A stretch of 39,907 nucleotides of DNA from NCBI GenBank assembly GCA_008015095.1, contig SSEV01000239.1:1-39907 (forward strand), written 5' to 3'. The notes beneath the pieces were generated by a model. It was not told where the DNA came from. It made no database searches and worked only from the letters and a program-made list of their open reading frames with translations. Both the position numbers and the translations under genes were made by a program. Shown here in pieces: positions 3,869-39,907 of this stretch. The number at the start of each line of letters is the position of its first letter. Position 1 is the first letter of the stretch. The stretch comes from Lysobacteraceae bacterium (GTDB lineage Bacteria; Pseudomonadota; Gammaproteobacteria; Xanthomonadales; Xanthomonadaceae).

Positions 3869-4753
3869 CTAGTCGCGATAGCGCTTGAGCAGATCCTGGT
3901 AGGCGTCGATGCGACGGTCGCGCAGGAATGGCCAGATCCGGCGCACGTGTTCGCTGCGGCCCAGATCGACCTCCGCGTGCAGGATCGCCGGCCCCCCGTC
4001 CGCTTGAGCCAGAAATTCACCCTGCGGGCCGAGCACATGACTAGTGCCCCAAAAATCGATACCCGACGCTCCCAGCGGGGAGATCTCGTGCCCGACACGG
4101 TTGCAGGAGAGCACCGGCAATCCGTTCGCCACGGCATGGCCGCGGTGGCTGAGCACCCAGGCGTCGCGTTGGCGCTCCTTCTCGGCCTGGGTATCGTCGG
4201 GATCCCAGCCGATGGCCGTCGGATAAAGCAACAACTCAGCCCCGGCAAGGGCCATCAGTCGTGCGCCTTCGGGATACCATTGATCCCAACACACCAATAC
4301 GCCCAGTCGGCCCACCGAAGTGTCGATCGGAGTAAAGCCGAGATCGCCCGGCGTGAAATAGAACTTCTCGTAGAAACCCGGGTCGTCCGGGATGTGCATC
4401 TTGCGATATTTGCCGGCGACCGATCCGTCGGCTTCGTATACGACCGCGGTATTGTGGTATAGGCCAGCAGCCCTGCGTTCGAACAGAGAACTCACCAGGA
4501 CGACGCGGTGTCGTTTCGCCAGCGCCCCCAGGCGTTGCGTGCTCGGTCCCGGAATGCATTCAGCGCGTTCGAATTCATCCACAGACTCGTGCTGACAGAA
4601 ATACGCGCCGTTGTGCAGTTCTTGCAACAGCACTAATTGCGCGCCGCCCCTGGCCGCTTCGCCGACGCGCTCTTCGATCACGGTGAGGTTGGCCTCGACC
4701 GTACCGTGATTTTTTTCCTGGATCAGTGCAACCGGCAGCGTCTTGTGTTTCAT
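3869..4753 (-). CDS. aguB: N-carbamoylputrescine amidase (carbon-nitrogen hydrolase)
   Basis: Nitrilase-fold motifs LVLLQELHNGAYF, KYRKMHIPDDPGFYEKFYFTPGD, LVCWDQWYPEGARLMAL. Start chosen at MKHKTLPVALIQ. Confidence 0.93.
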   Translation of the reverse strand: MKHKTLPVALIQEKNHGTVEANLTVIEERVGEAARGGAQLVLLQELHNGAYFCQHESVDEFERAECIPGPSTQRLGALAKRHRVVLVSSLFERRAAGLYHNTAVVYEADGSVAGKYRKMHIPDDPGFYEKFYFTPGDLGFTPIDTSVGRLGVLVCWDQWYPEGARLMALAGAELLLYPTAIGWDPDDTQAEKERQRDAWVLSHRGHAVANGLPVLSCNRVGHEISPLGASGIDFWGTSHVLGPQGEFLAQADGGPAILHAEVDLGRSEHVRRIWPFLRDRRIDAYQDLLKRYRD

Positions 4754-4832
4754 GGCGACCTTGAACGAAATCAGCATGGTGGGGCCTGCTTGGGCCCGTC
4801 ATTGCAGCATATTCGACACGGATTTCCACCTA

Positions 4833-5207
4833 GGGAGCCTCTGAACGCATCAGAGGTTCCCGCACGCCATGAAGGGGCGCTCGCGGATCAAGCGCGCAAG
4901 AGCTTGATTTGCGTGAGCGGGCTCAAACTTGGTCAGAGTCTACGGCGTCTGAATCACACCAAGATGGTGTGATTCAGACCTTCCATAACAGGCTGTTGAA
5001 AAGCGAGTTGCTCGCGCGACCACGTAAGCGACTGATTTGCCGGAGGCAAGTCCGGACATGTGCCGGACTCGCGACTTGACTGCGTCGGCAGGGGGCCGCG
5101 CGAACAGCCGCGCCGGCCAGCCGCAAGGATGCGGCGAGTCAAATATGTGCACAGCGCCAGCGTGGCGTTATTCAGGCGTTGCGGACTCGGGGCAAGCCCG
5201 AGTCCGC
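4833..5207. repeat. Non-coding palindrome-rich mosaic between aguA and aguB
   Basis: Inverted repeats GGGAGCCTCTGA/TCAGAGGTTCCC (4833-4861, one mismatch), GTCTGAATCACACC/GGTGTGATTCAGAC (4947-4979, 14 bp perfect), AGTCCGG/CCGGACT (5049-5069), GCGGACTCGGG/CCCGAGTCCGC (5181-5207, 11 bp perfect). No credible ORF. Confidence 0.65.
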
Positions 5208-5333
5208 TATCGCTGGATCAGGCGCTTGAACGTTTGATTCGCCAGCGGGCTATCCACGGCGCGCTGAATCTCTCAATTGTTCCGGGAGTGCCCATGTGCT
5301 CCATCGAGCGAAACCGCAGCGGACGGCCGGTGG

Positions 5334-6371
5334 TCAGCTGAGCACGCCCGCAGGCAATTGCATGGTGATGCAATGCAGGCTGCCGTTCTGCCAGATCAGC
5401 GGGCGGCATGGTATCGGTACGATACTACGACCGGGGAAAGCTTCGGCCAGCACGGCCTGCGCACGGGCATCGGCAGGATCGCCGTATGCCGGCACCAGTA
5501 CTGCGCCATTGACGATCAGGAAATTCGCGTAACTCGCCGCGAGACGTCGGCCTTCATCGAAGATCGGGCGTGGCCACGGTAGGGCGAACAGGCGGTAGGG
5601 TCTGCCGTCGCGCGTACGCAGAGCCGCCAATTCTTCAGCCATCGCCTGCAGTTCCAGAAAGTGCGTATCAGAGACATCGTCGCAGGCTTGGTAGACGATA
5701 ACGTCTTCGGCGGCGAAGCGGGCCAGGGTGTCGATATGGGCATCGGTGTCATCGCCCTCAAGATGGCCATGCTCCAGCCATAGCACCCGATCCTGGATCA
5801 ACCATTCGCATAATTTGTGTGTCAACTCCGTGCGCGAGGCTTGGGGATGACGCTCATGCAGACAGCGCCAGGTGGTGAGCAGGGTTCCGGCGCCATCGGT
5901 CTCGATCCCGCCACCCTCTAGCGCGAAATCGATTTGGCGTCGCTCGCTCGCACTGAACAACTCGCGCTCGCACAAGGCATCGATCAGACGATCGTCGCGG
6001 CTTGCCTCGAATTTGCCGCCCCAGCCGGTGAAGCGGAAATCGAGCAGCTTGGAGCTGTCGGTATTGGGGCCGACCAGTGCGATCGGGCCAGTATCGCGTA
6101 ACCAGGTGTCGTCGTATCCGACTTCGACGAAGCGAACCCGAGACATGTCGACTCGCGCCGAACTCAGGCGCGCCTCTGCATATGCCTGTAAATCGTCGTC
6201 GATCACGCAGATCACAACGGGCTCGAATGCGGTGATTGCGTCGACCAGGGCAATGTAGGTCTCCTCTACATCGACCAGACGCGGCGACCAGTCGGTATCG
6301 AGGTGCGGCCAAGCGATCAGCACCGCGGACTGGGGTTCCCATTCCGCGGGAAAACGGAGCGACTCGGTCAT
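5334..6371 (-). CDS. aguA: Agmatine deiminase
   Basis: Porphyromonas-type peptidyl-arginine deiminase/agmatine deiminase family: EWEPQSAVLIAWPH, YDDTWLRDTGPIAL, ALEGGGIETDGAGTLLTT, LEHGHLEGDDTDAHIDTLARF. Confidence 0.96.
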   Translation of the reverse strand: MTESLRFPAEWEPQSAVLIAWPHLDTDWSPRLVDVEETYIALVDAITAFEPVVICVIDDDLQAYAEARLSSARVDMSRVRFVEVGYDDTWLRDTGPIALVGPNTDSSKLLDFRFTGWGGKFEASRDDRLIDALCERELFSASERRQIDFALEGGGIETDGAGTLLTTWRCLHERHPQASRTELTHKLCEWLIQDRVLWLEHGHLEGDDTDAHIDTLARFAAEDVIVYQACDDVSDTHFLELQAMAEELAALRTRDGRPYRLFALPWPRPIFDEGRRLAASYANFLIVNGAVLVPAYGDPADARAQAVLAEAFPGRSIVPIPCRPLIWQNGSLHCITMQLPAGVLS

Positions 6372-27783: not shown

Positions 27784-28401
27784 ATGACGAGCACTCCACT
27801 GGCCACGGGCGTGCGGGTTCCTGCCGAAGCATTGACCTTGGGCATCCTCGCAGGCGGGCGCGCTACGCGTCTGGGCGGCATCGACAAGGCATGGCTGCAG
27901 CGCGACGGCATATCGCAAGTGGCGCGCTGGTCGCGGCGTTTCGTTGGCGAGCATGGGCCGGTGCTGGTTTCGGCGAATCGAGATCCAGAACGGTATGCGG
28001 CGCATGGATTGATCGCTTTGCCCGATCGCATGGCGGGTCTTGGTCCGCTTGGCGGAATCGAATCTTTGGCCGCCGCCTGCCCGACGACCTGGTTGTTCAC
28101 GCTGCCGGTGGACGTGGTGGGCGTCAACGACTGTCTGTTGCGCAGTCTTGTCGCCGGACGCGGCGATGACGGTGCCTTCGCCGTCGATGATGACGGCGCA
28201 CAACCTCTGGTGGCGCTGTGGCGTTGCGAGCGCTTGCGCGAAGCTTGCGCCAGCGCTTTGGCCGAGTCGCAATACGCGATCCGCGCGCTGCAAGCACGAA
28301 TGACATTGCGGCCGGTGACGTTCTGCGGCTTCCGCTTCGGTAATCTCAATACGCCGGCGGATTTGCTCGCGGCCGGCTTTCCTGCCCCCTCTCCGCCATG
28401 A
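27784..28401 (+). CDS. mobA: Molybdenum cofactor guanylyltransferase
   Basis: LGILAGGRATRLGGIDKAWLQ; LPDRMAGLGPLGGIESLA; LPVDVVGV. Confidence 0.92.
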   Translation: MTSTPLATGVRVPAEALTLGILAGGRATRLGGIDKAWLQRDGISQVARWSRRFVGEHGPVLVSANRDPERYAAHGLIALPDRMAGLGPLGGIESLAAACPTTWLFTLPVDVVGVNDCLLRSLVAGRGDDGAFAVDDDGAQPLVALWRCERLREACASALAESQYAIRALQARMTLRPVTFCGFRFGNLNTPADLLAAGFPAPSPP

Positions 28402-29654
28402 ACTTCCCTGTCCGAATCGCATTCGACGAGGCCCGCGCGATCATCGAGCGAGTCGCCGCAGACAGATGCTTGGGGACGGAACAAGCCGCGATTGGACGTG
28501 CGCGCGGACGCGTGCTCGCGCGCGATCTCGTCGCTGAGATCGATCACCCCGGCTTCGACAACTCGGCGATGGACGGTTATGCGCTTCGTCATTCCGATCT
28601 GGCCGCGGATAAGCCTCTGCGCCTGATTGGCGAGCAATATGCTGGCCGGATGCTCGACTTGCAGATCGGCCCCGGCGAATGCGTTCGGATCACGACGGGT
28701 GCGCCGATCCCGCAGGGGGCGGACACGGTGCTCATCAAAGAGAGCGCCCGTCTTGATGGTGACCGCGTGTACGCGTTGTCGATGCCGAAGCCGGGTCAGC
28801 ATGTGCGCCGCATGGGCGAGGATGTGCGTCGGGGCGAACGGTTACTCGCCACTGGGCAGGCGTTGACGCCTGCGCGGCTCGCATTGGCTGCCGGACAGGG
28901 GATGGCGCGCGTCGAGATCGCGCGCTTGCCGACTGTCGCGGTGTTCACCACCGGCGATGAACTGGTCGAGCCCGGTTTGCCGCTGGCGCCAGGGGAGCTC
29001 TACGACAGCAATCGCGAACTGTTGATGGCACTCTTGCATGCGGATGGGTTGGCGCCGGTCGCCTGGCCACGGTTGCCGGACGATCCTCAGGCGATTGCTT
29101 CTGCACTGCGTCATGCCGGGCACGCGTTCGATGTGGTCATCACTTGCGGAGGCGTCTCCGCAGGCGAGAAAGATCATCTCCCGATGCTGATGCAGGCAGC
29201 GGGGCAGGTGCATTTCTGGAAGGTGCGAATGAAGCCTGGCATGCCGGTCTTGTTCGCCGAATCGCATTCGGCGCTTGAAGGCCGAGCCGGCAGCGATGCG
29301 GAACAGGGTTTGGGTCAGGCGCTGTTCCTGTGTCTGCCGGGCAATCCGGTGTCGGTGCTGGCGACCTACCTCACGCTTGGCCGCGCCCTGCTGGACGGTT
29401 TGCAGCGGCGGACATCGCCGCGTTCGCGTCTGCGTGCGCGGTTGCGCGCACCCTGGTGCAAAACTCATGAGCGTCTTGAATTTCTCCGTGGCCGTCTCGC
29501 TTGCGATGACGACGGTTGTTTATGGGTCGAGCCCAGCCCCGCCGATGGCTCGCACCGCATGCGCGCCGCAGCGGACGGCGATGCGCTGATCGTGCTGGAA
29601 GAGGGCGAGCGGAGCCTGCAGGCCGGCGAGGTGGTCGATGTATTGGCGTACTGA
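28398..29654 (+). CDS. moeA: Molybdopterin molybdenumtransferase
   Basis: DNSAMDGYALR, GAPIPQGADTVLIKE, FTTGDELVEPG, ITCGGVSAGEKDHLP, CLPGNPVSVLATY; ATGA overlap with mobA. Confidence 0.95.
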   Translation: MNFPVRIAFDEARAIIERVAADRCLGTEQAAIGRARGRVLARDLVAEIDHPGFDNSAMDGYALRHSDLAADKPLRLIGEQYAGRMLDLQIGPGECVRITTGAPIPQGADTVLIKESARLDGDRVYALSMPKPGQHVRRMGEDVRRGERLLATGQALTPARLALAAGQGMARVEIARLPTVAVFTTGDELVEPGLPLAPGELYDSNRELLMALLHADGLAPVAWPRLPDDPQAIASALRHAGHAFDVVITCGGVSAGEKDHLPMLMQAAGQVHFWKVRMKPGMPVLFAESHSALEGRAGSDAEQGLGQALFLCLPGNPVSVLATYLTLGRALLDGLQRRTSPRSRLRARLRAPWCKTHERLEFLRGRLACDDDGCLWVEPSPADGSHRMRAAADGDALIVLEEGERSLQAGEVVDVLAY

Positions 29655-29876
29655 CGCACGATGATGGCGGCCAAAGGATGGTTCGATGCCCAGGCAGAGC
29701 GAACATCGCCACAGCGGCACGGATTGGGTTGATCGTCGCCCTGACGCACCGCGAAATGGGCCGCACTCGCCGCACGTTGCGGCTTGTCATTGCCATCCGC
29801 TGCGTTTTCGCCGGCGGTGAATGGGAACATCGCGATCCGGATGGGAATGGCGGCGGTCCGAGTATGATGGGCCGGC

Positions 29877-31013
29877 ATGAGCGCCGTTCACGAACTTTCC
29901 CCGATAGCCGCACGTGCGCGCCTGGATGCCGGCGCGACGCTGATCGATGTCCGTGAGGCGCATGAGCGCGCGTTGGGCATGGCCACAGGCGCGCGCGGCA
30001 TCGCCATGGGCGAATTGGTCTACGCGCCGGCTGCGCACCTGCCGGACCGCGACGCCGAGATCCTGCTGATTTGCCAGAGCGGCATGCGCTCGCTACGCGC
30101 GGCGCAGATGTTGGCCGAGCAAGGGTATGCGAACGTGGCCTCGATCGTCGGCGGTACCGCACGTTGGGTTGCGGAAGGGCTGCCGACCCGTATCCAGGAC
30201 GAAGATCTCGACGCGGATTTCGCGGAACGCTATTCGCGTCATTTGCGCTTGCCGCAAGTCGGACTGGAAGGACAGAGGCGGCTGGAGGCCGCGTGCGTGC
30301 TGCTGGTCGGCGCGGGCGGCTTGGGAAGTCCCATCGCCTATTATCTGACCGCGGCCGGCGTCGGCCGGTTGCGCATCGTCGATCACGACATCGTCGACCG
30401 CAGCAATCTTCAGCGTCAGATCCTGCACACGGAGGCGCGGATCGGACAGCGTAAGACCGAATCGGCTGCGGCAGCTTTGTCCGCGCTGAATCCGCGGGTG
30501 AAGATCGAGGCCGTGGCCGAGCGCGCGACGCGCGCGAATATCGACAATTTGCTCGATGGCGTCGACGTCGCCATCGACGGCGCGGACAATTTTCCATCGC
30601 GTTACCTGCTCAACGACGCCTGCGTACGGCTGGGAAAACCTTTGATCTACGGCGCGGTGCATCGTTTCGAGGGACAGGCGGCCGTATTCGACGCCGGCCG
30701 ACAACGCGGCATGTCGCCGTGCTATCGATGCCTGTTTCCGGAGCCGCCACCCGCCGAAGCCGCGCCCAATTGCGCCGAGGCCGGCGTGCTCGGCGTGCTT
30801 CCCGGTGTGATCGGCCTGATCCAGGCGACCGAGACGATCAAGCTCATCCTCGGCATCGGCGAATCCCTGGCCGGGCGTCTGCTTCATTTCGACGCGCTAT
30901 CGATGCGCTTTCGCGAAACGCGGCTGCGTGCGGATTCCGAGTGTCCGGTCTGCGCGCCCGGTACGAAGCCCGCCGGCGCGTTCGACGAAGAGACGTACTG
31001 CGCCTTGCGCTGA
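29877..31013 (+). CDS. moeB: MoeB/ThiF-type adenylyltransferase with N-terminal rhodanese domain
   Basis: Rhodanese LIDVREAHER...LICQSGMRSLRAAQML, then RYSRHLRLPQVGLEGQRRLEAACVLLVGAGGLGSPIAYYL. Confidence 0.93.
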   Translation: MSAVHELSPIAARARLDAGATLIDVREAHERALGMATGARGIAMGELVYAPAAHLPDRDAEILLICQSGMRSLRAAQMLAEQGYANVASIVGGTARWVAEGLPTRIQDEDLDADFAERYSRHLRLPQVGLEGQRRLEAACVLLVGAGGLGSPIAYYLTAAGVGRLRIVDHDIVDRSNLQRQILHTEARIGQRKTESAAAALSALNPRVKIEAVAERATRANIDNLLDGVDVAIDGADNFPSRYLLNDACVRLGKPLIYGAVHRFEGQAAVFDAGRQRGMSPCYRCLFPEPPPAEAAPNCAEAGVLGVLPGVIGLIQATETIKLILGIGESLAGRLLHFDALSMRFRETRLRADSECPVCAPGTKPAGAFDEETYCALR

Positions 31014-31026
31014 AGCCGCTTCAGCG
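31008..31026. terminator. Hairpin containing both convergent stop codons
   Basis: CGCTGAAG-ccg-CTTCAGCG: moeB TGA in the left arm, LuxR-gene TGA (as TCA) in the right arm. Confidence 0.5.
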
Positions 31027-31539
31027 GGCCGATTTCGACGGCTCGACCCGCGCGCCGACCTGCCTGGCTTGCGGGATCTCCGCGGTCGCCCACGAAGCGC
31101 AACGGAACACCATCGCCGAGCGGCTATGCACATTGAGTTTGCAGAAGATCTGCTTGAGATAGGTTTTCACCGTGTACTCGCTGATATGCAGCCTGTAGGC
31201 GATCTGTTTGTTGACGCAACCGTGACAGACCAGGCGAATGATCTGCAACTCGCGCGCGGTCAGCGAGGTGAGCGCGATTTCGTCCTGCGTCGTACGGGGT
31301 GCAACGGCATCGGTCCGCGCATAGACCGCATAGTCCTGGCCATCCAGATTCAGGCGGCCCAACAGTTTCACCACGCCGCACGCGTCGGCATCCAGCGCGC
31401 GCCCGAGTTGACCGGACGTCGGAACGACCAGGCAGTGAGTGTCTTCCAGACGAAATTCCGCGAGCACCGCGAGCGTGCTCGGGCTGCGCTCGATCAGTGC
31501 GGGCCGAAGTGGAGCAGTGGAGTCCTTTCGAGTGATCAT
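31021..31539 (-). CDS. LuxR/NarL-type HTH transcriptional regulator (orphan)
   Basis: C-terminal LTARELQIIRLVCHGCVNKQIAYRLHISEYTVKTYLKQIFCKLNVHSR. Start MITRKDSTAPLRP chosen; N-terminal domain not recognised. Confidence 0.85.
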   Translation of the reverse strand: MITRKDSTAPLRPALIERSPSTLAVLAEFRLEDTHCLVVPTSGQLGRALDADACGVVKLLGRLNLDGQDYAVYARTDAVAPRTTQDEIALTSLTARELQIIRLVCHGCVNKQIAYRLHISEYTVKTYLKQIFCKLNVHSRSAMVFRCASWATAEIPQARQVGARVEPSKSAR

Positions 31540-31840
31540 CGTCCCGTGCTCGCGCCCTTGGGTGCCCTCTGGCGGCAGATGCGACGATGCCCGACGGAAT
31601 CCCGGGGCAGGCGATGGCCGCGATGTGCCAAGCACAACATTGCCGCTGGATGCCCGGATCCCGACGCCCGCTCCATGCTGGTCGCCACGTATCCGGGCAA
31701 TCTTGCCAAGCTTCCCCTGTAGTAATACCCCCAACGCGATATCGGGCTGACACCGTCCACATAGCGGCGCGAACAGGGAACGCCCCGGTCGTCAGACGAC
31801 GCAACGGGTTGCATGGCGTCCGCACCTGCAGCGATCAACC

Positions 31841-32911
31841 TCATGCGTCTCCTGGCGTGCCGGTCGCAAAGGCCAGCCGAGGCGGGATTTCGCGCGCGAT
31901 GCAGGCGCGCCTGCGATCGCGCTCGGCGAGCGTTGCGCGGCGACGCGGCGGCGCGGGTTCGCGGACGCCGAGCACTCGGGCGATATTCGCGTTCGCGTCG
32001 CGATAGGGACGCAGCAAGGCCGACGGCCCGGTGATCAGCGGGGTCACGCCGGGGCCGTGACCGCTGACGGTGCTGTCGCCGTGGACGATCACGCCGACAG
32101 TGACGCGCCCCTGATTGACCGAGGGGCCACGTCTCGTATCCGCGTTGACGATCGCGACCAGATCGCCGAAACGCAGACTCCCCAGGCGATAACGCTCACG
32201 CAGGGCCCGATCGGACATCTGGATGTCGTAATCGCCGCGCCAGGCGCTGTTCTTGCCCAGACCAGACCCCATCAGCACCGCCGGTATCCGATGCGTCACC
32301 GGTGCGTGCAGCCCCCCGTCGCGCACATGCAGTCCCCAGCGACGGAGCAGGATGGGGGCCGCGTTCATCACTTCCAGATCCGGAAAATCCGGGAAACGCA
32401 GACCGAGACCGCAACTGCGGATTTGGATGCGATCGCCGATGGTCAGTCCGGCCAGCACCTCGGAGGGAAAATCGACCAGAACATGATTGATGCCGCCATG
32501 CTTGCCGGTGACGACGCCGCGCTGCCCAGCCATGCGCCCGTTGATCACTTCGGCGGGATTGCCCACACAGGCGTAGGTCATCAGTGCGTTGTTGGGGCCG
32601 TCACGCGGGCCGACCACCTCGCGTTGATTATTATGCAGCGCGACGCCTGGCTCGATGTGATCACCGGCCAGGCCGATGCACAGGTCGCCGATCCGGTGGT
32701 TCAGCACGATCCCTCCGGTGCCGGGCAGCACGCGTGGCACGCCGTCGTAGCCGATGCGATACGGGTTGGCGCGAGCGACAGGATGCGCGATCTGTCCGAG
32801 CACGCTGACCATGACCAATTCGTCGTCATTGATGCGCGGCGTCGCGCGGCCGTGGTTGATCACCGCATTTCTGCGTCTTGGGTTGGTCGTGGCCGGATCG
32901 GATGCGTCCAT
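31841..32911 (-). CDS. DUF4438-like protein
   Basis: INDDELVMVSVLGQIAHPVARANPYRIGYDGVPRVLPGTGGIVLNHRIGDLCIGLAGDHIEPGVALHN resembles DUF4438; start 14 bp after the upstream stop. Confidence 0.7.
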   Translation of the reverse strand: MDASDPATTNPRRRNAVINHGRATPRINDDELVMVSVLGQIAHPVARANPYRIGYDGVPRVLPGTGGIVLNHRIGDLCIGLAGDHIEPGVALHNNQREVVGPRDGPNNALMTYACVGNPAEVINGRMAGQRGVVTGKHGGINHVLVDFPSEVLAGLTIGDRIQIRSCGLGLRFPDFPDLEVMNAAPILLRRWGLHVRDGGLHAPVTHRIPAVLMGSGLGKNSAWRGDYDIQMSDRALRERYRLGSLRFGDLVAIVNADTRRGPSVNQGRVTVGVIVHGDSTVSGHGPGVTPLITGPSALLRPYRDANANIARVLGVREPAPPRRRATLAERDRRRACIAREIPPRLAFATGTPGDA

Positions 32912-32925
32912 GGGATGTTCTCGGG

Positions 32926-33783
32926 TCAGATGGCGTACCAGAAGTGACGCGCCGAACGCCACGGATCGCCGTTCGCCGGTTGCGGCGGAAGGTCGTAACC
33001 GAAGCCGCGATCAAGCGCGAACGATCCGACGGTTTCGAGCTCGGCGCTTTCGACGCGCAGCGCGACATCGCCGCAGAGCAACGGGTGCACCACCGCCAGG
33101 CGCAATCCGCCCCAGAGCAAAGAAGTGCAGCCCGCGCTGACGATCAGCTCGCGCAGACGGCGCTGTTCCAGATGGGTCAGCGCATCGTCGTCGCCCGGAG
33201 GTTGCTCCAGGTTCAGTCCGACCTGTTCGCAGGCCAGGCCGATGCAGGCTTGGGGCGCATCGGGCGCGATCGTCAGCACGCAGGCGTTGCCCAGCGCCGC
33301 GGCCAGCGACAGGCTGTCGATCGTGCCGTAGAACGCTGCGCTTTCGGTGGCGTCGTCGTTCAGATTCGAACGCGCGGTCAGACTCTGGTGAAAAGCCTCG
33401 TAGCGTTCGATCAGATCCGGCGGAATACCGTCCGGGAATGAGGATTCGCTCAGGTTGTCGCTGACCCAGTGCAGACGGCAATGACTGAGATCGGTGCGCA
33501 GCCGCGCGTCCTCCCACAGACGCAGAGCCTGGCCGAGTTCGATCGCGCTGTCGGACGGTAAGCGCTCGCGCAGCGCGTTCGGCCATAACACCAGGGGGTC
33601 GCTTCGATAGTAGTCGCTGGCGTCGATGACCTGCCAGAACGTGCGCGTCACCCACAGATCGGCGTGCGCAGACAGTCGGCTGACCAGATGTGCGCCGTAG
33701 GGCGAACCTAACGCAAGCAATGGGTCGACGACATAGGCGTTGCGCTTGGCGCGGAAACTGACTTCGAGTTCCTGATCGAGCAT
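32926..33783 (-). CDS. Hypothetical protein, 285 aa
   Basis: Uninterrupted ORF, balanced composition, tightly spaced with the downstream DUF4438-like gene. Confidence 0.78.
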   Translation of the reverse strand: MLDQELEVSFRAKRNAYVVDPLLALGSPYGAHLVSRLSAHADLWVTRTFWQVIDASDYYRSDPLVLWPNALRERLPSDSAIELGQALRLWEDARLRTDLSHCRLHWVSDNLSESSFPDGIPPDLIERYEAFHQSLTARSNLNDDATESAAFYGTIDSLSLAAALGNACVLTIAPDAPQACIGLACEQVGLNLEQPPGDDDALTHLEQRRLRELIVSAGCTSLLWGGLRLAVVHPLLCGDVALRVESAELETVGSFALDRGFGYDLPPQPANGDPWRSARHFWYAI

Positions 33784-33865
33784 GGCTCATGCCTGTTCAA
33801 AAGAGACCGCAGCGGCCGTGTCGCCGCCAGACCCGGCCGCGGATGCGGCAGGACTGAAATGCGCA

Positions 33866-34033
33866 GGACTTAAGGCAACACTGAACAAGTCCCTCCTGGA
33901 CTTGCTCAGTGGTCGCAAGTCCGACATGAATTCGGACTTGCTCTCGCCGAATCAATCACTTGCGTGATTGATTCGCAGGCGGCGCATCCCTGTGCCGCGG
34001 CAACGCTGACTTTTGCAGTGTTGCCTTAAGTTC
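33866..34033. repeat. MITE-like palindromic element with terminal inverted repeats
   Basis: 18-bp TIRs with one mismatch (GGACTTAAGGCAACACTG ... CAGTGTTGCCTTAAGTTC); internal hairpins at 33886-33904, 33915-33941 (10 bp) and 33948-33975 (12 bp). Confidence 0.85.
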
Positions 34034-34086
34034 GCAGAACCGAAGCTCGCAACGGAGGCGAGCGCCCCCGTTGCGCTCTGGCCTCA

Positions 34087-35178
34087 TCAGGCCGGGGTCG
34101 TCGCGGTGCCGAGTACGCTGCGCAAGGCCGGAGTGATGCCCGGGAAGCCGCGGCCTTCCGGCGTCATCCGATAGGCGGCGACCCATGAATCGGCGTGCGA
34201 ACCCAACGGCCGGATCGTCGACTGGAACAGAACCGGATCGGTCACCGTCTTGAAATCGTTGTCGGCCGCGAATTTCAGGATGCGCCTGCCGCTTTCGGCC
34301 ATCTTGGCGCGTTGCGAGGGCTCGGCTGTGCCGCCGAGATGACGGTTGGAGACGATTTCGATGACATCCCACTTGGTGTTGGCGTCGAACGCTTTCTTGA
34401 TGTCGGGCGTATCGAGGATCTCCAACACCTGCACCAGATAGTGTCCGACTTCCATCGCCAGCGAGAAGATGTTGCCGTAGGTGCTGCGGTCCAGGGCGTA
34501 ACGCATATCCAGTCCGATGCGCTGGATCGTGGCGATGCTGCCGAACGGGCGTTGGTCGATCAACTGGCCACCGCGGATCACTTCGCCGATCAGCATGTCG
34601 CGGAAATACTGGCTGATCGAGACCATGAAGCCGACCAGCTGGCGATGGAAATTGCGATTGACCACCGCGCCGGCCGGTACCTGGGCGTTGCCGTAGTTGA
34701 ACGCGCGACGGTACGCGATCATCCGATCCTGCTTGGTGTAACGCAGCGGACGCAGCTTGTCGAGGCGATAAAGGCCTTGCGCGCCGGGGCCGCGTTGCAC
34801 GCGCATTTTGCCCAGGCGGAACAGCCGTTGCAGCACTTCCACCACCTCGAACACTTTCATGCGCTCGTGCTGCCAGCTGTAGTACAGCTCGGCGGCGGCG
34901 TGCAATTGGCTCGGGATGACCGCATCGTCGAAGTCCGGTTCGATGTAGGGATAGCTGATGTCGGCGAAATCGACCGGTCCCTTCGTGCCCAGGCCGACCA
35001 GATCGAGGATGCCCTGCTCGCCGCGCGCGCCCGGATTGGACGAGCGCAGCAGGTCGCCGAGACGCTGTTCGAACTCGACTTCATACGCTTGGCGTTCGCC
35101 GGGCGGCAACCTGTCCAACTGCTCGCGCAGGAACGTTTCCCACAGCCGTTGAATGGTTTCGTGTGTCTGGAAACTCAT
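34087..35178 (-). CDS. Hypothetical protein, 363 aa, predicted mostly helical
   Basis: Uninterrupted ORF with natural composition (MSFQTHETIQRLWETFLREQLDRLPPGERQAYEVEFEQRLGDLL...), close spacing to the upstream gene. Confidence 0.82.
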   Translation of the reverse strand: MSFQTHETIQRLWETFLREQLDRLPPGERQAYEVEFEQRLGDLLRSSNPGARGEQGILDLVGLGTKGPVDFADISYPYIEPDFDDAVIPSQLHAAAELYYSWQHERMKVFEVVEVLQRLFRLGKMRVQRGPGAQGLYRLDKLRPLRYTKQDRMIAYRRAFNYGNAQVPAGAVVNRNFHRQLVGFMVSISQYFRDMLIGEVIRGGQLIDQRPFGSIATIQRIGLDMRYALDRSTYGNIFSLAMEVGHYLVQVLEILDTPDIKKAFDANTKWDVIEIVSNRHLGGTAEPSQRAKMAESGRRILKFAADNDFKTVTDPVLFQSTIRPLGSHADSWVAAYRMTPEGRGFPGITPALRSVLGTATTPA

Positions 35179-35193
35179 GATGATTCTCCTCGA

Positions 35194-36105
35194 TCAACGC
35201 TTGCTGCGAGGTTGATTTTTCTTGACTGCTCGCCTGGCGGCCTTCGGCGTGGCGGTCGCGGCGGACGGAGGCTGCGCGGGCATGTCGCCGGGAGCGGGGG
35301 TCGTCTGAATCCCGCCATCCTCATCGTAGGACGCAGCCGGCCAGTCGCCAGGATCGATCCCGTCGCCGAAATCCTCGGCGGCGACCAACAGCATCGTGGC
35401 GAGCAGCAGCCCCGCGCGCCGGTTGATTTCGTCGTAAACCGCGCGCGATGTCAGTTCGCCGTTTCCGACGAATTTCTCGAACACGGCCGTATCGACCGCG
35501 CTGTCGAAGGTCCGCAACGCTGCTTCCAGCTTGTATTCCGCCAGCAATCCGCGGACTTCGCCGATCAGCGGCAGCGTGTTGTGCATGAGCTTGTCGTGGA
35601 GATAGCTGTCGGCGTCGACATCGTGTTTGTCGACTAGGTGCGCGGTCGCCGCGATGATTTCCGCGATGATCGAGTACTTGAGATCGTTGAGTTCGGGTTC
35701 GAACTTGCCCGGATCCGGACGGTTCGAACCGTGTTTCGCGATGACCTCGGTCGCCAACGCGATCTTCAATTGCGCATCGGTCTGTTGGCGCAGGATCAGC
35801 GTCTGTTGGGTTTGCTCGATCGCCTGCTGTTGCAGGGCGAGCATCTTGCCGATGGCGGCGACGTTGCCGGCGTGGATGCGTTGATGCAGGACGCTATGGC
35901 CCGGTTGGGGCACGTGAGCGGATATCGCGATGGGCGCGACCGCCGCCGGTGTTTTTGGCGGCGGCGCGCAGGCGTGGATCCGCATGGCGCGACGCGGCGT
36001 TCTGGCGCTGCGCCCGATCCGATGCAGTCCGCAGGTGGCCGGTGCGCCGACGTCCGTCGTCGCGACCGCCGGTTGCTGCTGTAGGAACTGGACCGTGAAT
36101 GACAT
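35194..36105 (-). CDS. Hypothetical protein, 303 aa, Gln-rich centre and basic tail
   Basis: ORF with MLALQQQAIEQTQQTLILRQQTDAQLKIALATEV helical centre and PKAARRAVKKNQPRSKR C-terminus. Confidence 0.78.
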   Translation of the reverse strand: MSFTVQFLQQQPAVATTDVGAPATCGLHRIGRSARTPRRAMRIHACAPPPKTPAAVAPIAISAHVPQPGHSVLHQRIHAGNVAAIGKMLALQQQAIEQTQQTLILRQQTDAQLKIALATEVIAKHGSNRPDPGKFEPELNDLKYSIIAEIIAATAHLVDKHDVDADSYLHDKLMHNTLPLIGEVRGLLAEYKLEAALRTFDSAVDTAVFEKFVGNGELTSRAVYDEINRRAGLLLATMLLVAAEDFGDGIDPGDWPAASYDEDGGIQTTPAPGDMPAQPPSAATATPKAARRAVKKNQPRSKR

Positions 36106-36147
36106 GGTGTTCTCCTGTGGGATGCGTGGACGCGATCACGGACCGGT

Positions 36148-37998
36148 CTAGGGTTGCGACGCGGGGCTACCGCCGAACCGCAGACGATCCTGGGCGATGG
36201 TGTCGAGCGAGGTCTCGAAGTGCGCCGGAATATCCGGACCGTCCAGCCCGCAGTCGGTATTGACGACATTGGCGGCGATCCCGTCGACCACCAGCTGCAT
36301 GGCGTTCTCGAGCATCACGACCAGTGCTCCGTCGTCGCCGAACAGGGTCGACATCGGTATGCAATTGGCGCTCATCTGATCGGCGAGCGCTTCCCAGCGT
36401 CGCTCGGACTGCAGCTGCAGGCACAGTTCCTGATGCAGGATGTCGGTAAAGCGGAAAGTGCTGCCGGCCACGGCCTCATTGGTCGTCCGGCGCTGTTCGA
36501 AGCGGGTCAATGTCGTGTCCCAGTCCGGTTCTGCGTCGCTGTGCGGGCGCAGTTCTTCGGCGATCTCCTCCAGTGTCGTCACCAGGGCTGCGGGGAGATC
36601 CGGACAGAACATGAGGTTCTGACCGGTCTGCGGATCGATTTCATTGCTTTCCAGATGGAGGAACGCATCGATCAGGTAGCTATACGAGGCGGCGCGGATT
36701 TCGGGCAATCCGAGATCATCGCTGCCGACTGCGTACAGATCGATCGTGCGGTCGATGTCGTAGAGGATCTTGTCGAGCATCACCTGACAACTGATGTCGT
36801 CGCAGGCGCAGCGCGCCAGACAATCGACCTGACTGGCCAGGCGGCCGCGAGCGACGGTGAGATTGACGATGCGACGATCGGCGGCGGCTTCCTCTTCGAT
36901 CCCGTACAGGCCATAGAACACGATCGGCGGGCGTGCGACGCGGAGCAGGCGCGAACCGCCGGCTTGGCCGAATCCGTCGGCGAACAGGCGTAGCGCTTCG
37001 AGGAACGAAGTCAGCGGCGGCGACTCCGGATCGACCAGGCGATAGCCGAAGTTGATCAGGCGATAGACGCGATTGAGTTCGATCTGCGCAGTCGAACCGA
37101 GTGCGCGCAGGCCTTCGGCGCTGCCGTGAGCGGCGCGGCGGACGAGATCGTCGAGCACGCGCATCAGTTCGGGCTCGGTCATCAGCGCGCGCAGATCGCC
37201 TTGACCTTGCGCCTCCAGCGCATCGAACAAACGACGATAGGCGTCGATGCCGCGCGGCCATTCGTTCGGCGCGTTCTGGTACGACAGGCTGCCGAGCAGG
37301 TTCTGCAGCGAATGGATGCAGGCATCGCGGCGGGTCTGCATTTCGGTGAACGGCGCCTGCAGCAGGAAACGCCCGCCGGCGAAACCGTTGTTGGCCATGC
37401 TCTCGCCGAGCATCACCAGGATCACCGCACAAACTTCGTCGATGCTCTGCGCCAGGCTGCGGAATTCGTAGGTGGCCGATGGATTGAGCGCGCCGACCAG
37501 GCGCGAGAGGCGGGCGTAATCGCCAAGCGTGCGGCGCATGCCGATGGCGCGGTCGCGGTTGCGCGGATCGAGGCCGAAACGCGCCGCGTTCACGCCTTCC
37601 TGGGCGGACGAGCGAATGCCGTCGGACCAGCCGCCGAGTTCCGCATCGATATCCTTGAGCAGATTGTTGCGGTTGAGATTTTCGAGATCCTTCTCGACAT
37701 CGCTCATCGCCTGTTTGAGATCGACGCTGGTCGCGGTGTTGTCAGGCGCGGCCTGGACGAAGCGCGGTGCGCTGCGCAGGAATGGCAGGCCTTCGGCCTC
37801 GCTCTGGATACCGCGCGCGCGCGGCTCGGCCTGGTAGCGATCGAGCAGCGCCTTGGCGATCTGCTGCGGATTACGCGGGTCGCCGACCCGCAATTCCCGG
37901 CGCAGCAGATTATCGAGCGCGAGCTGGGCCTTCGATGGCGGAGTGGAGCGGCCACTATCGGTAGCGCCGGGCTTCGAATCGGATGAGTTGCTGAACAT
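36148..37998 (-). CDS. Hypothetical protein, 616 aa
   Basis: Long ORF with balanced composition, 30 bp from the upstream stop; local Cys cluster DCLARCACDDISC. Confidence 0.82.
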   Translation of the reverse strand: MFSNSSDSKPGATDSGRSTPPSKAQLALDNLLRRELRVGDPRNPQQIAKALLDRYQAEPRARGIQSEAEGLPFLRSAPRFVQAAPDNTATSVDLKQAMSDVEKDLENLNRNNLLKDIDAELGGWSDGIRSSAQEGVNAARFGLDPRNRDRAIGMRRTLGDYARLSRLVGALNPSATYEFRSLAQSIDEVCAVILVMLGESMANNGFAGGRFLLQAPFTEMQTRRDACIHSLQNLLGSLSYQNAPNEWPRGIDAYRRLFDALEAQGQGDLRALMTEPELMRVLDDLVRRAAHGSAEGLRALGSTAQIELNRVYRLINFGYRLVDPESPPLTSFLEALRLFADGFGQAGGSRLLRVARPPIVFYGLYGIEEEAAADRRIVNLTVARGRLASQVDCLARCACDDISCQVMLDKILYDIDRTIDLYAVGSDDLGLPEIRAASYSYLIDAFLHLESNEIDPQTGQNLMFCPDLPAALVTTLEEIAEELRPHSDAEPDWDTTLTRFEQRRTTNEAVAGSTFRFTDILHQELCLQLQSERRWEALADQMSANCIPMSTLFGDDGALVVMLENAMQLVVDGIAANVVNTDCGLDGPDIPAHFETSLDTIAQDRLRFGGSPASQP

Positions 37999-38028
37999 GT
38001 GCGATCTCCTGATGGACTCGGACTCGAT

Positions 38029-39330
38029 CTATGCGGCGACGGTTGCGATCCGCGGCTGCGATTCGCGTCTGCGTTCGGCGCGAACGTCCTCGGACAGGCG
38101 GCCGATGACGTCATCGGCGAGTTGGCGCGGATTGACCCGGGCGTCGGCCAGGGCATAGCTGGCGGCGCTGAGCAGATGCCGCGGCGGCAGCTCGACCCGG
38201 TCGATACGCCGCTGCGCCAGCAGTCGTGCGCCCCGCCGGATCGCGGCCTGGTTCTCGCGCGCGAACGGAATGATGTCGGCGACCGCGCGCTGGGCAAGAT
38301 TGCGGCGGGTCTGGTACATGGTTTCGTCGACCACGTGCGGAATCACATGACGTGCGCTGGACAGCAGCGCGCCGGGCATGCGGTGTCCGCGATCGGGGCG
38401 ATACAGGCTGCCCCAGATCCGTTCCAGGCGCGCGGCGTCCTGCGCGAAATTCATACGCCGCAGCATCTCCGCCAGAATCTGTACGCGCAGGAATGCGGTG
38501 GGATGTGCGCCGCCGGGACGATAGGTCATTGTTCGCGGCGCCGGATGGGCCAGAAATTCGGCCATGCCCCAGGCTGCGGCTGGTCCGCCAAGGCATAACG
38601 CGGCCAGATCCGCCCAGATTTCCTTGTGCCAGCGGCCATAGACGCTGGCCAGGAACGGTTGACGGAGTTGCCCCATGATCCGACGCACGACGGCCTGGCG
38701 ATTCTCTTGCCAGATGCCGAGATCCGCTTGCAGATTGTGCGCGACCTCGTGCAGGAATACCGCTTGCCAGGGATGATCCCGGTCCCAGGGAATTCGGATC
38801 AGCGGGAATGGATTCTGCTCGCCCAGCAAGCGCCCCAACGAAACGCCCCGACGCATCGTCGCCGGCGAGTAGCCGTGCTCCATGTAACACACCGGCTTGA
38901 GCAGCGTGCCGCGGAATACGCGCGGTGCGGCGGCGCGGATCGCCTGATAGCAGTCCTGGGCGATGGCGTCGTGCGCGGAGAGGGTAGGGCCATAGTTGGT
39001 GCCGCGCTGCGCGAAGACCTCGAAAAACATTCCGAACAGACGCCGCGCGCGATCCAGCTCACGCTCGACCAAGGCGATATCGATCAGCACGCGCTGGATC
39101 GGGGCCTGTTCGACCGAAGCCTGCACATCGGCGAAACGTTTGCGGATTTGGGCTTCGACGTTGGCCAGACGTTGATTGGCCGCTTCGAAATGCGCGCGTG
39201 AAGGTGCATGGGGCATGTCCTGCGGACGCAGGCCGACGAATGCATTGTCGACCCTGGCGAGGCGGCGCAGTCGCGCCGCCAGGCCACGGACCTTCAAGCG
39301 CAGGAACTCTCGGGCATTGCGGGCGGGCAT
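38029..39330 (-). CDS. Putative zinc metallopeptidase (HExxH...E), 433 aa
   Basis: VFLHEVAHNLQADLGIWQ (HEVAH codons at 38737-38751) with HKEIWADLAALCLGG about 39 residues later, a gluzincin-like arrangement. Confidence 0.75.
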   Translation of the reverse strand: MPARNAREFLRLKVRGLAARLRRLARVDNAFVGLRPQDMPHAPSRAHFEAANQRLANVEAQIRKRFADVQASVEQAPIQRVLIDIALVERELDRARRLFGMFFEVFAQRGTNYGPTLSAHDAIAQDCYQAIRAAAPRVFRGTLLKPVCYMEHGYSPATMRRGVSLGRLLGEQNPFPLIRIPWDRDHPWQAVFLHEVAHNLQADLGIWQENRQAVVRRIMGQLRQPFLASVYGRWHKEIWADLAALCLGGPAAAWGMAEFLAHPAPRTMTYRPGGAHPTAFLRVQILAEMLRRMNFAQDAARLERIWGSLYRPDRGHRMPGALLSSARHVIPHVVDETMYQTRRNLAQRAVADIIPFARENQAAIRRGARLLAQRRIDRVELPPRHLLSAASYALADARVNPRQLADDVIGRLSEDVRAERRRESQPRIATVAA

Positions 39331-39392
39331 GTCGTCGGGCTCCGTTTCGTCCTTGGGTGTGTCGTAGCGGTTTCGGGCTGTGATCGGTCACG

Positions 39393-39907
39393 TCACCGGC
39401 AACGCACACGGATCGTGGCCGGGCCGGCCACATTGACCACGCGCCGGCCGTGACGCGGGCAGTTGCAGCGTGCGGCCACACCACCGGCGACGACCGGGCG
39501 GGCGATGACGGGCGGACCCGTCCGCCGACGCACTGCGCGGACCAGCGGCACCACGCGGCCACGCACTGGCGCTGCAGCGCGACGTACGGTGGCCACCGCG
39601 CGACGCTGCGGGACGGCGCGGCGCACGCGCGGAACCAACGGACGGGCCAGCGCGCGGGCAGCCGCGGGACGTCGTACGGCCTGCGCCGTCACTCTGCGCA
39701 CGACGCGGGGAACCACGCGCCGGGCAGGGGCTCGGCGCTGGCGTGCGACGCGACGTGCGACGGCGATCGCACGCGGTACTACGCGCGCGGCTGGACGGCC
39801 GCGGGCGCGCACCGCACCGCGCACGGCCTGGGTCGCCGCACGCACCACGCGGCGACGCGCTGGCGCCGCCATGCGCGCGACTGCGGGTAATGCGCGACGT
39901 AAGGCAA
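39393..39907 (-). CDS. Extremely Arg/Ala/Val/Pro-rich basic protein, 5' end open at window edge
   Basis: 159 aa from ATG at 39872; frame stays open to the window end (...ALRRALPAVAR-MAAPARRRVV...). About 45/159 residues are Arg; C-terminus CNCPRHGRRVVNVAGPATIRVRCR. Confidence 0.6.
   Translation of the reverse strand, partial: ALRRALPAVARMAAPARRRVVRAATQAVRGAVRARGRPAARVVPRAIAVARRVARQRRAPARRVVPRVVRRVTAQAVRRPAAARALARPLVPRVRRAVPQRRAVATVRRAAAPVRGRVVPLVRAVRRRTGPPVIARPVVAGGVAARCNCPRHGRRVVNVAGPATIRVRCR

Follow-up and report, generated by a model that had tools for sequence, protein, structure and literature searches.

The window analysed here, a 39,907-nucleotide stretch of DNA from a Lysobacteraceae bacterium (contig SSEV01000239.1 of assembly GCA_008015095.1, forward strand), is a whole contig of a draft genome of 3.5 Mb in 254 contigs (75% complete); among the named entries of the collections, Lysobacter sp. 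MAG PRO5 (WYBC01000014.1) is closest to it. Its right end carries a cluster of mostly unassigned genes on the - strand, in which a predicted metalloprotease, the zincin, adjoins a protein split into oppositely charged parts, called AAR. An earlier note on this DNA had described seven genes there, and when the frames were re-read all seven open frames were present at the positions claimed. Read in the direction of transcription, they encode AAR2 (39393..39907), truncated by the contig end to its C-terminal 170 amino acids; the zincin (38029..39330, 433 amino acids); p616 (36148..37998); p303 (35194..36105), which has a basic C-terminus; p363 (34087..35178); p285 (32926..33783); and a DUF4438 protein (31841..32914, probable start ATG at 32911). 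The cluster extends beyond these limits on both sides. On the right, continuation past the window edge had been foreseen and is supported by two other genomes (G003 and G058), which carry an intact AAR2 and a further AAR paralogue upstream. On the left, the boundary set at 31841 has to be moved, since a conserved gene for a LuxR-type helix-turn-helix (HTH) protein (31021..31734, - strand, HTH recognised by eye, probable shorter start near MITRKDS) follows the DUF4438 gene and belongs to the cluster as its eighth member. A similar regulator closes the cluster in G003, G058, G720, G656, G442, PGU19, and G1000; in the portions of G253 and G939 that were read, none was seen.

By tblastn, G003 has the full set of seven genes in unchanged order, and G058 has six of the seven. 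In both genomes the cluster starts upstream with two related proteins, AAR1 (436 and 447 amino acids, respectively) and then AAR2 (411 and 419 amino acids). Because the contig end falls inside AAR2, the first readable cluster gene, the window shows only part of the system, and a counterpart of AAR1 would fall beyond the contig end. Identities to G003 and G058 are 87% and 61% for the Arg tail of AAR2, 88% and 74% for the zincin, 83% and 37% for p616, 98% and 81% for p363, 71% and 61% for p285, and 82% and 71% for the DUF4438 protein; p303 shares 45% identity with its G003 counterpart and went undetected in G058. The ratio of nonsynonymous to synonymous substitution rates (dN/dS) against G003 is lowest for p363, the most conserved gene (0.03; 0.032 to three decimals), followed by the AAR tail (0.07), the zincin (0.11), the DUF4438 protein and p616 (0.14-0.15), p285 (0.26), and p303, the fastest-evolving of the set (0.53); the flanking moeB gives 0.23. 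With dN/dS at 0.03-0.26 for all but p303, the seven genes are real and appear to be under purifying selection relative to G003, p303 being loosely constrained.

The short intergenic gaps of 30, 42, 15, and 14 bp reported earlier proved correct, and AAR2 and the zincin gene are 62 bp apart. What widens the gap between p363 and p285 to 303 bp is a mobile repeat of about 164 bp (33868..34031), which resembles a miniature inverted-repeat transposable element, has perfect inverted ends (ACTTAAGGCAACACTG) and internal hairpins, and is missing from the equivalent gap of G003 (132 bp) as well as from that of G058. A whole-genome search returned at least 40 matches to this repeat, up to 96% identical; it is a high-copy insertion foreign to the system. 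A promoter scan found 0 candidates, against 1.6 in shuffled sequences.

AAR is a protein of about 410 amino acids. About -50 charges sit in its N-terminal part and about +45 in its C-terminal part, and the two parts are separated by a cationic amphipathic helix and a glycine-rich stretch. The earlier description of a simply basic, Arg-rich protein, of which the last 170 amino acids are readable in the window, thus has to be replaced by that of a nearly charge-balanced, bipartite protein. Among 12 AARs, the N-terminal part ranges from -19 to -56, the C-terminal part from +21 to +46, and the whole protein from -18 to +5. The charge split was not reached by any of 500 shuffles for any of the 12 proteins, and AARs take the top 16 rows among 254 background open reading frames of the loci, a ranking in which overlapping loci repeat the same or near-identical genes. 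The charges of the two parts are correlated at r = -0.78, uncorrected for relatedness. The acidic region consists of short, aromatic-spaced repeats (e.g., DEFDEGD, EGEWEDES, and ELHELGE), and the cationic amphipathic helix (e.g., FFRRIARGVRGVVRTVRR) has a moment of 0.55-0.72, with p <= 0.005 in all eight segments, which were picked by eye. In the basic part, Arg or Lys makes up 13-27% of the residues and several AARs are free of Asp and Glu, including the basic tails of the intact AAR2 proteins of G003 and G058, which end in a GPxxIRVRxR-like tag. The eight complete clade-1 AARs that were compared all carry a tag of the GP[VAT]xhx type, 8-10 residues before the C-terminus (the clades are described below). 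Since Lys outnumbers Arg in the tail of G442 (30 Lys, 20 Arg), the property conserved in the tail is basic charge rather than arginine itself. Several loci hold two AAR-type genes.

The zincin gene directly adjoins an AAR gene in every cluster readable on that side. Its HExxH motif, on which the earlier assignment was based, is kept in all 12 zincin sequences scanned, down to about 20% identity, as is a [W/L]xxExxxD motif some 33-39 residues further on, whose Glu occupies the position of the third metal ligand. In the window these are HEVAH at residues 194-198 and WHKEIWAD with E237 and D241. HExxH with a downstream ExxxD is the ligand pattern of the gluzincins (clan MA(E)), and the protein is predicted to be a gluzincin-like metalloprotease. 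Since the protease has a bipartite, charge-balanced protein as its neighbour at all loci readable on both sides, the two are most simply read as an enzyme-precursor pair. Distant relatives of the zincin were also seen in rhizobial plasmid islands (L015 3618-22983; L016 4737-16095), among CHAT, S8, and C25 peptidases, a patatin, a phospholipase D, and a large predicted ATP-binding protein. In Rhizobium CCGE532 (L017 8487-19047), two AAR-like proteins lie near a zincin relative, followed by a 934-amino-acid protein with peptidoglycan-binding and glucosaminidase-type (FlgJ/GsmA-like) matches; these AAR-like proteins have the helix in common with AAR, but their charge split is unconvincing, being reached by 88 and 8 of 500 shuffles.

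Profile searches found no sequence relative of p363 or the zincin in the PDB. The earlier assignment of the DUF4438 protein is correct: it matches PF14505 at 176.6 bits (2.6e-52) and PF20999 at 151.9 bits (1e-44), both domains lying above their curated cut-offs of 24.9 and 27, and residues 22-313 match PDB 3n99/3dcl (TM1086) at 1.9e-66. It is thus a member of the TM1086/DUF4438 family, which is annotated as uncharacterised.

To follow the system across genomes, p363 was used as its marker in genome samples that overlap one another. Of 390 good Pseudomonadota genomes, 3 carry it, and it was also found in 4 of 282 genomes of the class of G253 (together with a weak partial match in G661 at 3.2e-4), in 3 of 254 genomes of the order of G253, in 4 of 22 genomes of the family of G720, and on a replicon of Paraburkholderia sp. 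PGU19. This brings the core loci to 13, of which ten, in Alpha- and Betaproteobacteria, come in addition to the window, G003, and G058, and in every one of them the zincin co-occurs with p363. A zincin profile matched the same 4 of 289 genomes as p363 (G253, G656, G195, and G720, representing four genera and three families), to which p363 adds one weak partial match. By hand calculation, such an overlap would arise by chance about once in 2.8e8 if the two genes were independent, a figure that relatedness makes less extreme. A profile of the AAR tail matched only G195 and G253 among 299 genomes, both of which are p363-positive. In four held-out test genomes found later (G939, G768, G1014, and G1000), the zincin lies in the p363 neighbourhood in all four loci and an AAR lies upstream in the three where the contig reaches far enough. 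The AAR gene of G1014 is broken by a stop codon (L061 81-1200), which may reflect decay or an assembly error. Among plasmids, AAR was found in the PGU19 source record only, a negative that is weakened by the BLAST low-complexity filter. The possibility, raised in the earlier note, that the genes do not occur together elsewhere can thus clearly be set aside.

The p363 sequences fall into two clades, a grouping that rests on the table of identities. Clade 1 comprises the window, G003, G058, G253, and G720 (53-98% identical) and spans Gamma- and Alphaproteobacteria, and clade 2 comprises PGU19, G656, G442, and G195 (at least 45% identical among themselves, about 30% to clade 1) and spans Beta- and Alphaproteobacteria. 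On sequence similarity, three further loci (G939, G1014, and G1000) go with clade 1 and one (G768) goes with clade 2. The zincin sequences group into the same two clades. Their match to the same 4 of 289 genomes and their shared grouping across bacterial classes indicate that zincin and p363 travel together. Moreover, as both clades mix classes and as G720 and G656 sit in different clades despite belonging to one family, the data suggest that the unit moves between lineages. Its core arrangement is AAR, zincin, a middle gene, and p363, usually with the LuxR-type gene. In clade 1 the middle slot is taken by p616, conserved in that clade only, and several loci have an extra gene at the position of p303; in clade 2 the slot is filled by other sequences (382, 619, 652, and 176 amino acids), without detectable similarity to p616 where tested. 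Genes p285 and DUF4438 were observed in clade 1 only, no DUF4438 gene being seen in the clade 2 loci. In PGU19 (L012 16009-18249), the interval from p363 to the LuxR-type gene contains genes that, judged by eye, encode an M20-type peptidase and an amidohydrolase.

In the window, the cluster abuts moeB, one of the molybdenum-cofactor genes (mobA-like, moeA, moeB) at 27784-31013, and in G003 it lies between moeB and the folD side. The genomes G004 and G010 carry der, mobA, moeA, and moeB, followed within a few kb by folD and guaB, and lack the cluster; G001 has the same flanks without it, moeB having been located there by search. Since the flanking genes sit close together in these sister genomes, the cluster, present in 2 of 11 genus members, is an accessory islet. 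Further away in the window (3869-6371, - strand), two adjacent genes resemble by eye those for N-carbamoylputrescine amidase and agmatine deiminase, of the arginine-to-putrescine route.

Comparison with the Pfam, NCBIfam, PHROGs, and PADLOC libraries matched only the DUF4438 protein among the seven; matches of window proteins to a type IX secretion system plug, CsoSCA_N, and OXA-42 in Pfam and NCBIfam were rejected, being far under the cut-offs. Within these libraries, the earlier statement that the cluster fits no known secretion, phage, or defence system stands. For prophage morphogenesis, there was no PHROG match and no p363 in phages or viral contigs, and for anti-phage defence no PADLOC model for any of the seven proteins. 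The gene for the VipB sheath of the type VI secretion system (T6SS) is present in the cluster carriers G058, G253, G195, and G442 and absent from G003 (97% complete), G656 (100%), and G720 (99%), for which reason a general dependence on the T6SS was rejected. Literature searches found no description of such a system. With no matches found, we rate the kind of system as undescribed in the sources searched, a rating that could change with structure comparison.

These observations lead us to favour, with a probability of roughly 0.4, the reading that the cluster serves to produce and regulate a masked cationic effector, which the predicted zincin would free with p363 as its partner. AAR would be made as a precursor in which the acidic, aromatic-spaced repeats neutralise the amphipathic helix, the glycine-rich stretch, and the long basic C-terminal region. 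The neighbouring zincin would cut this precursor and part the acidic from the basic half, whereupon the freed basic part would bind an anionic partner, most likely nucleic acid or membranes (those of the cell itself when triggered, or of a neighbour following lysis). Membranes are suggested by the amphipathic helix and the glycine-rich stretch, and nucleic acid is suggested just as much by the basic tail. In this scheme, the protease may be held or set off by p363 together with the variable gene that separates the two, and expression would be governed by the LuxR-type protein; any roles of p363, DUF4438, and p285 are inferred. Of the functions put forward earlier, that of a self-contained system is retained, with protease maturation favoured over plain nucleic-acid packaging because AAR is almost charge-balanced and bipartite.

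Several points weigh against a masked effector. No cleavage site was identified, and no obvious signal peptide was seen by eye in any of the proteins, which leaves release outside the cell unexplained; together with the three hosts that lack a T6SS, this leaves two options, that AAR acts within the cell that makes it or that it is set free when cells lyse. At about 180 amino acids, the basic tail is long, which sets it apart from small antimicrobial peptides. No gene could be recognised as conferring immunity, and the purifying selection on p363 is very strong, unlike that on typical arms-race genes. The DUF4438 protein has no obvious place in the model. Moreover, AlphaFold2 models built from two sequences each are of low confidence, with a mean predicted local distance difference test score of 36 for p363, which looks helical there, and of 47 for the zincin, whose model is too poor to be used.

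Less probable, although still the best placed among the rivals, is a protease-matured assembly, in which AAR would be a charge-patterned scaffold (a block polyampholyte) that forms a particle or compartment together with p363, p616, and p285, through phase separation or assembly, and is trimmed by the zincin in the process. Opposite charge blocks would favour self-association, p363 evolves as slowly as a structural core, the C-terminal tag is conserved in all complete clade-1 AARs compared, and two AAR-type genes are present in several loci; however, library searches detected no shell, capsid, sheath, or encapsulin-like family, and a middle gene without detectable conservation between the clades would be odd for a structural part. 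Rather unlikely is a narrower form of the masked-effector reading, intracellular defence or suicide, in which a trigger frees the zincin and the cationic half of the cut AAR permeabilises the cell's own membrane, after the manner of other bacterial cell-death systems gated by a protease. The accessory islet with empty sites in sister genomes, the variable slot between zincin and p363, as expected of a sensor, and the company that the distant zincin relatives keep on rhizobial plasmids are consistent with it, but no PADLOC model matches, no defence-island neighbours were recognised around the clusters of the window, G003, or G058, and no NTPase sensor was recognised. Nucleic-acid packaging or condensation, with a protamine-like basic tail and an acidic half acting as a chaperone domain that the zincin removes, draws on the high Arg or Lys content of the basic part and its freedom from Asp and Glu in several AARs, but is improbable, as library searches identified none of the window proteins as a nuclease, helicase, terminase, or portal, p363 has no phage or viral-contig relative, and DNA binding needs neither an amphipathic helix nor a glycine-rich stretch.

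If the masked-effector reading is true, bacteria would have a new way to store and release a cationic effector, with precursor, protease, and partners in one mobile cassette. Regardless of mechanism, consistently co-occurring unassigned genes common to three proteobacterial classes are a clear experimental target, and p363, AAR, and zincin serve as markers for proteins that none of the libraries used recognises.

Partial likenesses to this system are found in several places. Clusters in Tolypothrix (L013 11638-21809) and Burkholderia pyrrocinia (L014 6809-22549) plasmids likewise hold a distant p363 relative near an S8 peptidase. Proteins of the peptidoglycan-binding or amidase kind accompany them, and Trypco2 is weakly matched in L014; these clusters differ in that no AAR-type protein or zincin was recognised there and in having other unassigned proteins. 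In the logic of the precursor, the nearest parallel comes from alpha-defensin precursors, whose anionic prosegment is thought to keep the cationic peptide inactive until its removal by a protease (PMC3308943). There too, an acidic propiece is followed by a cationic effector in one chain with charges about balanced, and proteases of the same compartment remove the propiece; unlike AAR, for which cleavage is proposed from gene context, these precursors are eukaryotic and their effectors small and disulfide-bonded, and a sequence relation between the two was neither found nor looked for. Eosinophil pro-major basic protein is another precursor that joins an acidic propiece to a cationic effector. 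Bacterial gasdermins, on the other hand, form a protease-gated cell-death system in which, as here, a protease gene adjoins the gene for a putatively masked, possibly membrane-active protein; the protease is of another class and the mask here would be an acidic N-terminal region, and the library search found no gasdermin or other known pore family among the window proteins. Somewhat more tentatively than the masked effector as such, we suggest that the cluster may be a horizontally moving, undescribed system in which a zinc protease and p363 convert a charge-balanced precursor into a long cationic effector, as a bacterial counterpart of the pro-defensin and pro-major-basic-protein logic. The opposite blocks of roughly balanced charge that mark a propeptide-masked cationic effector were found in 12 of the 12 AARs.

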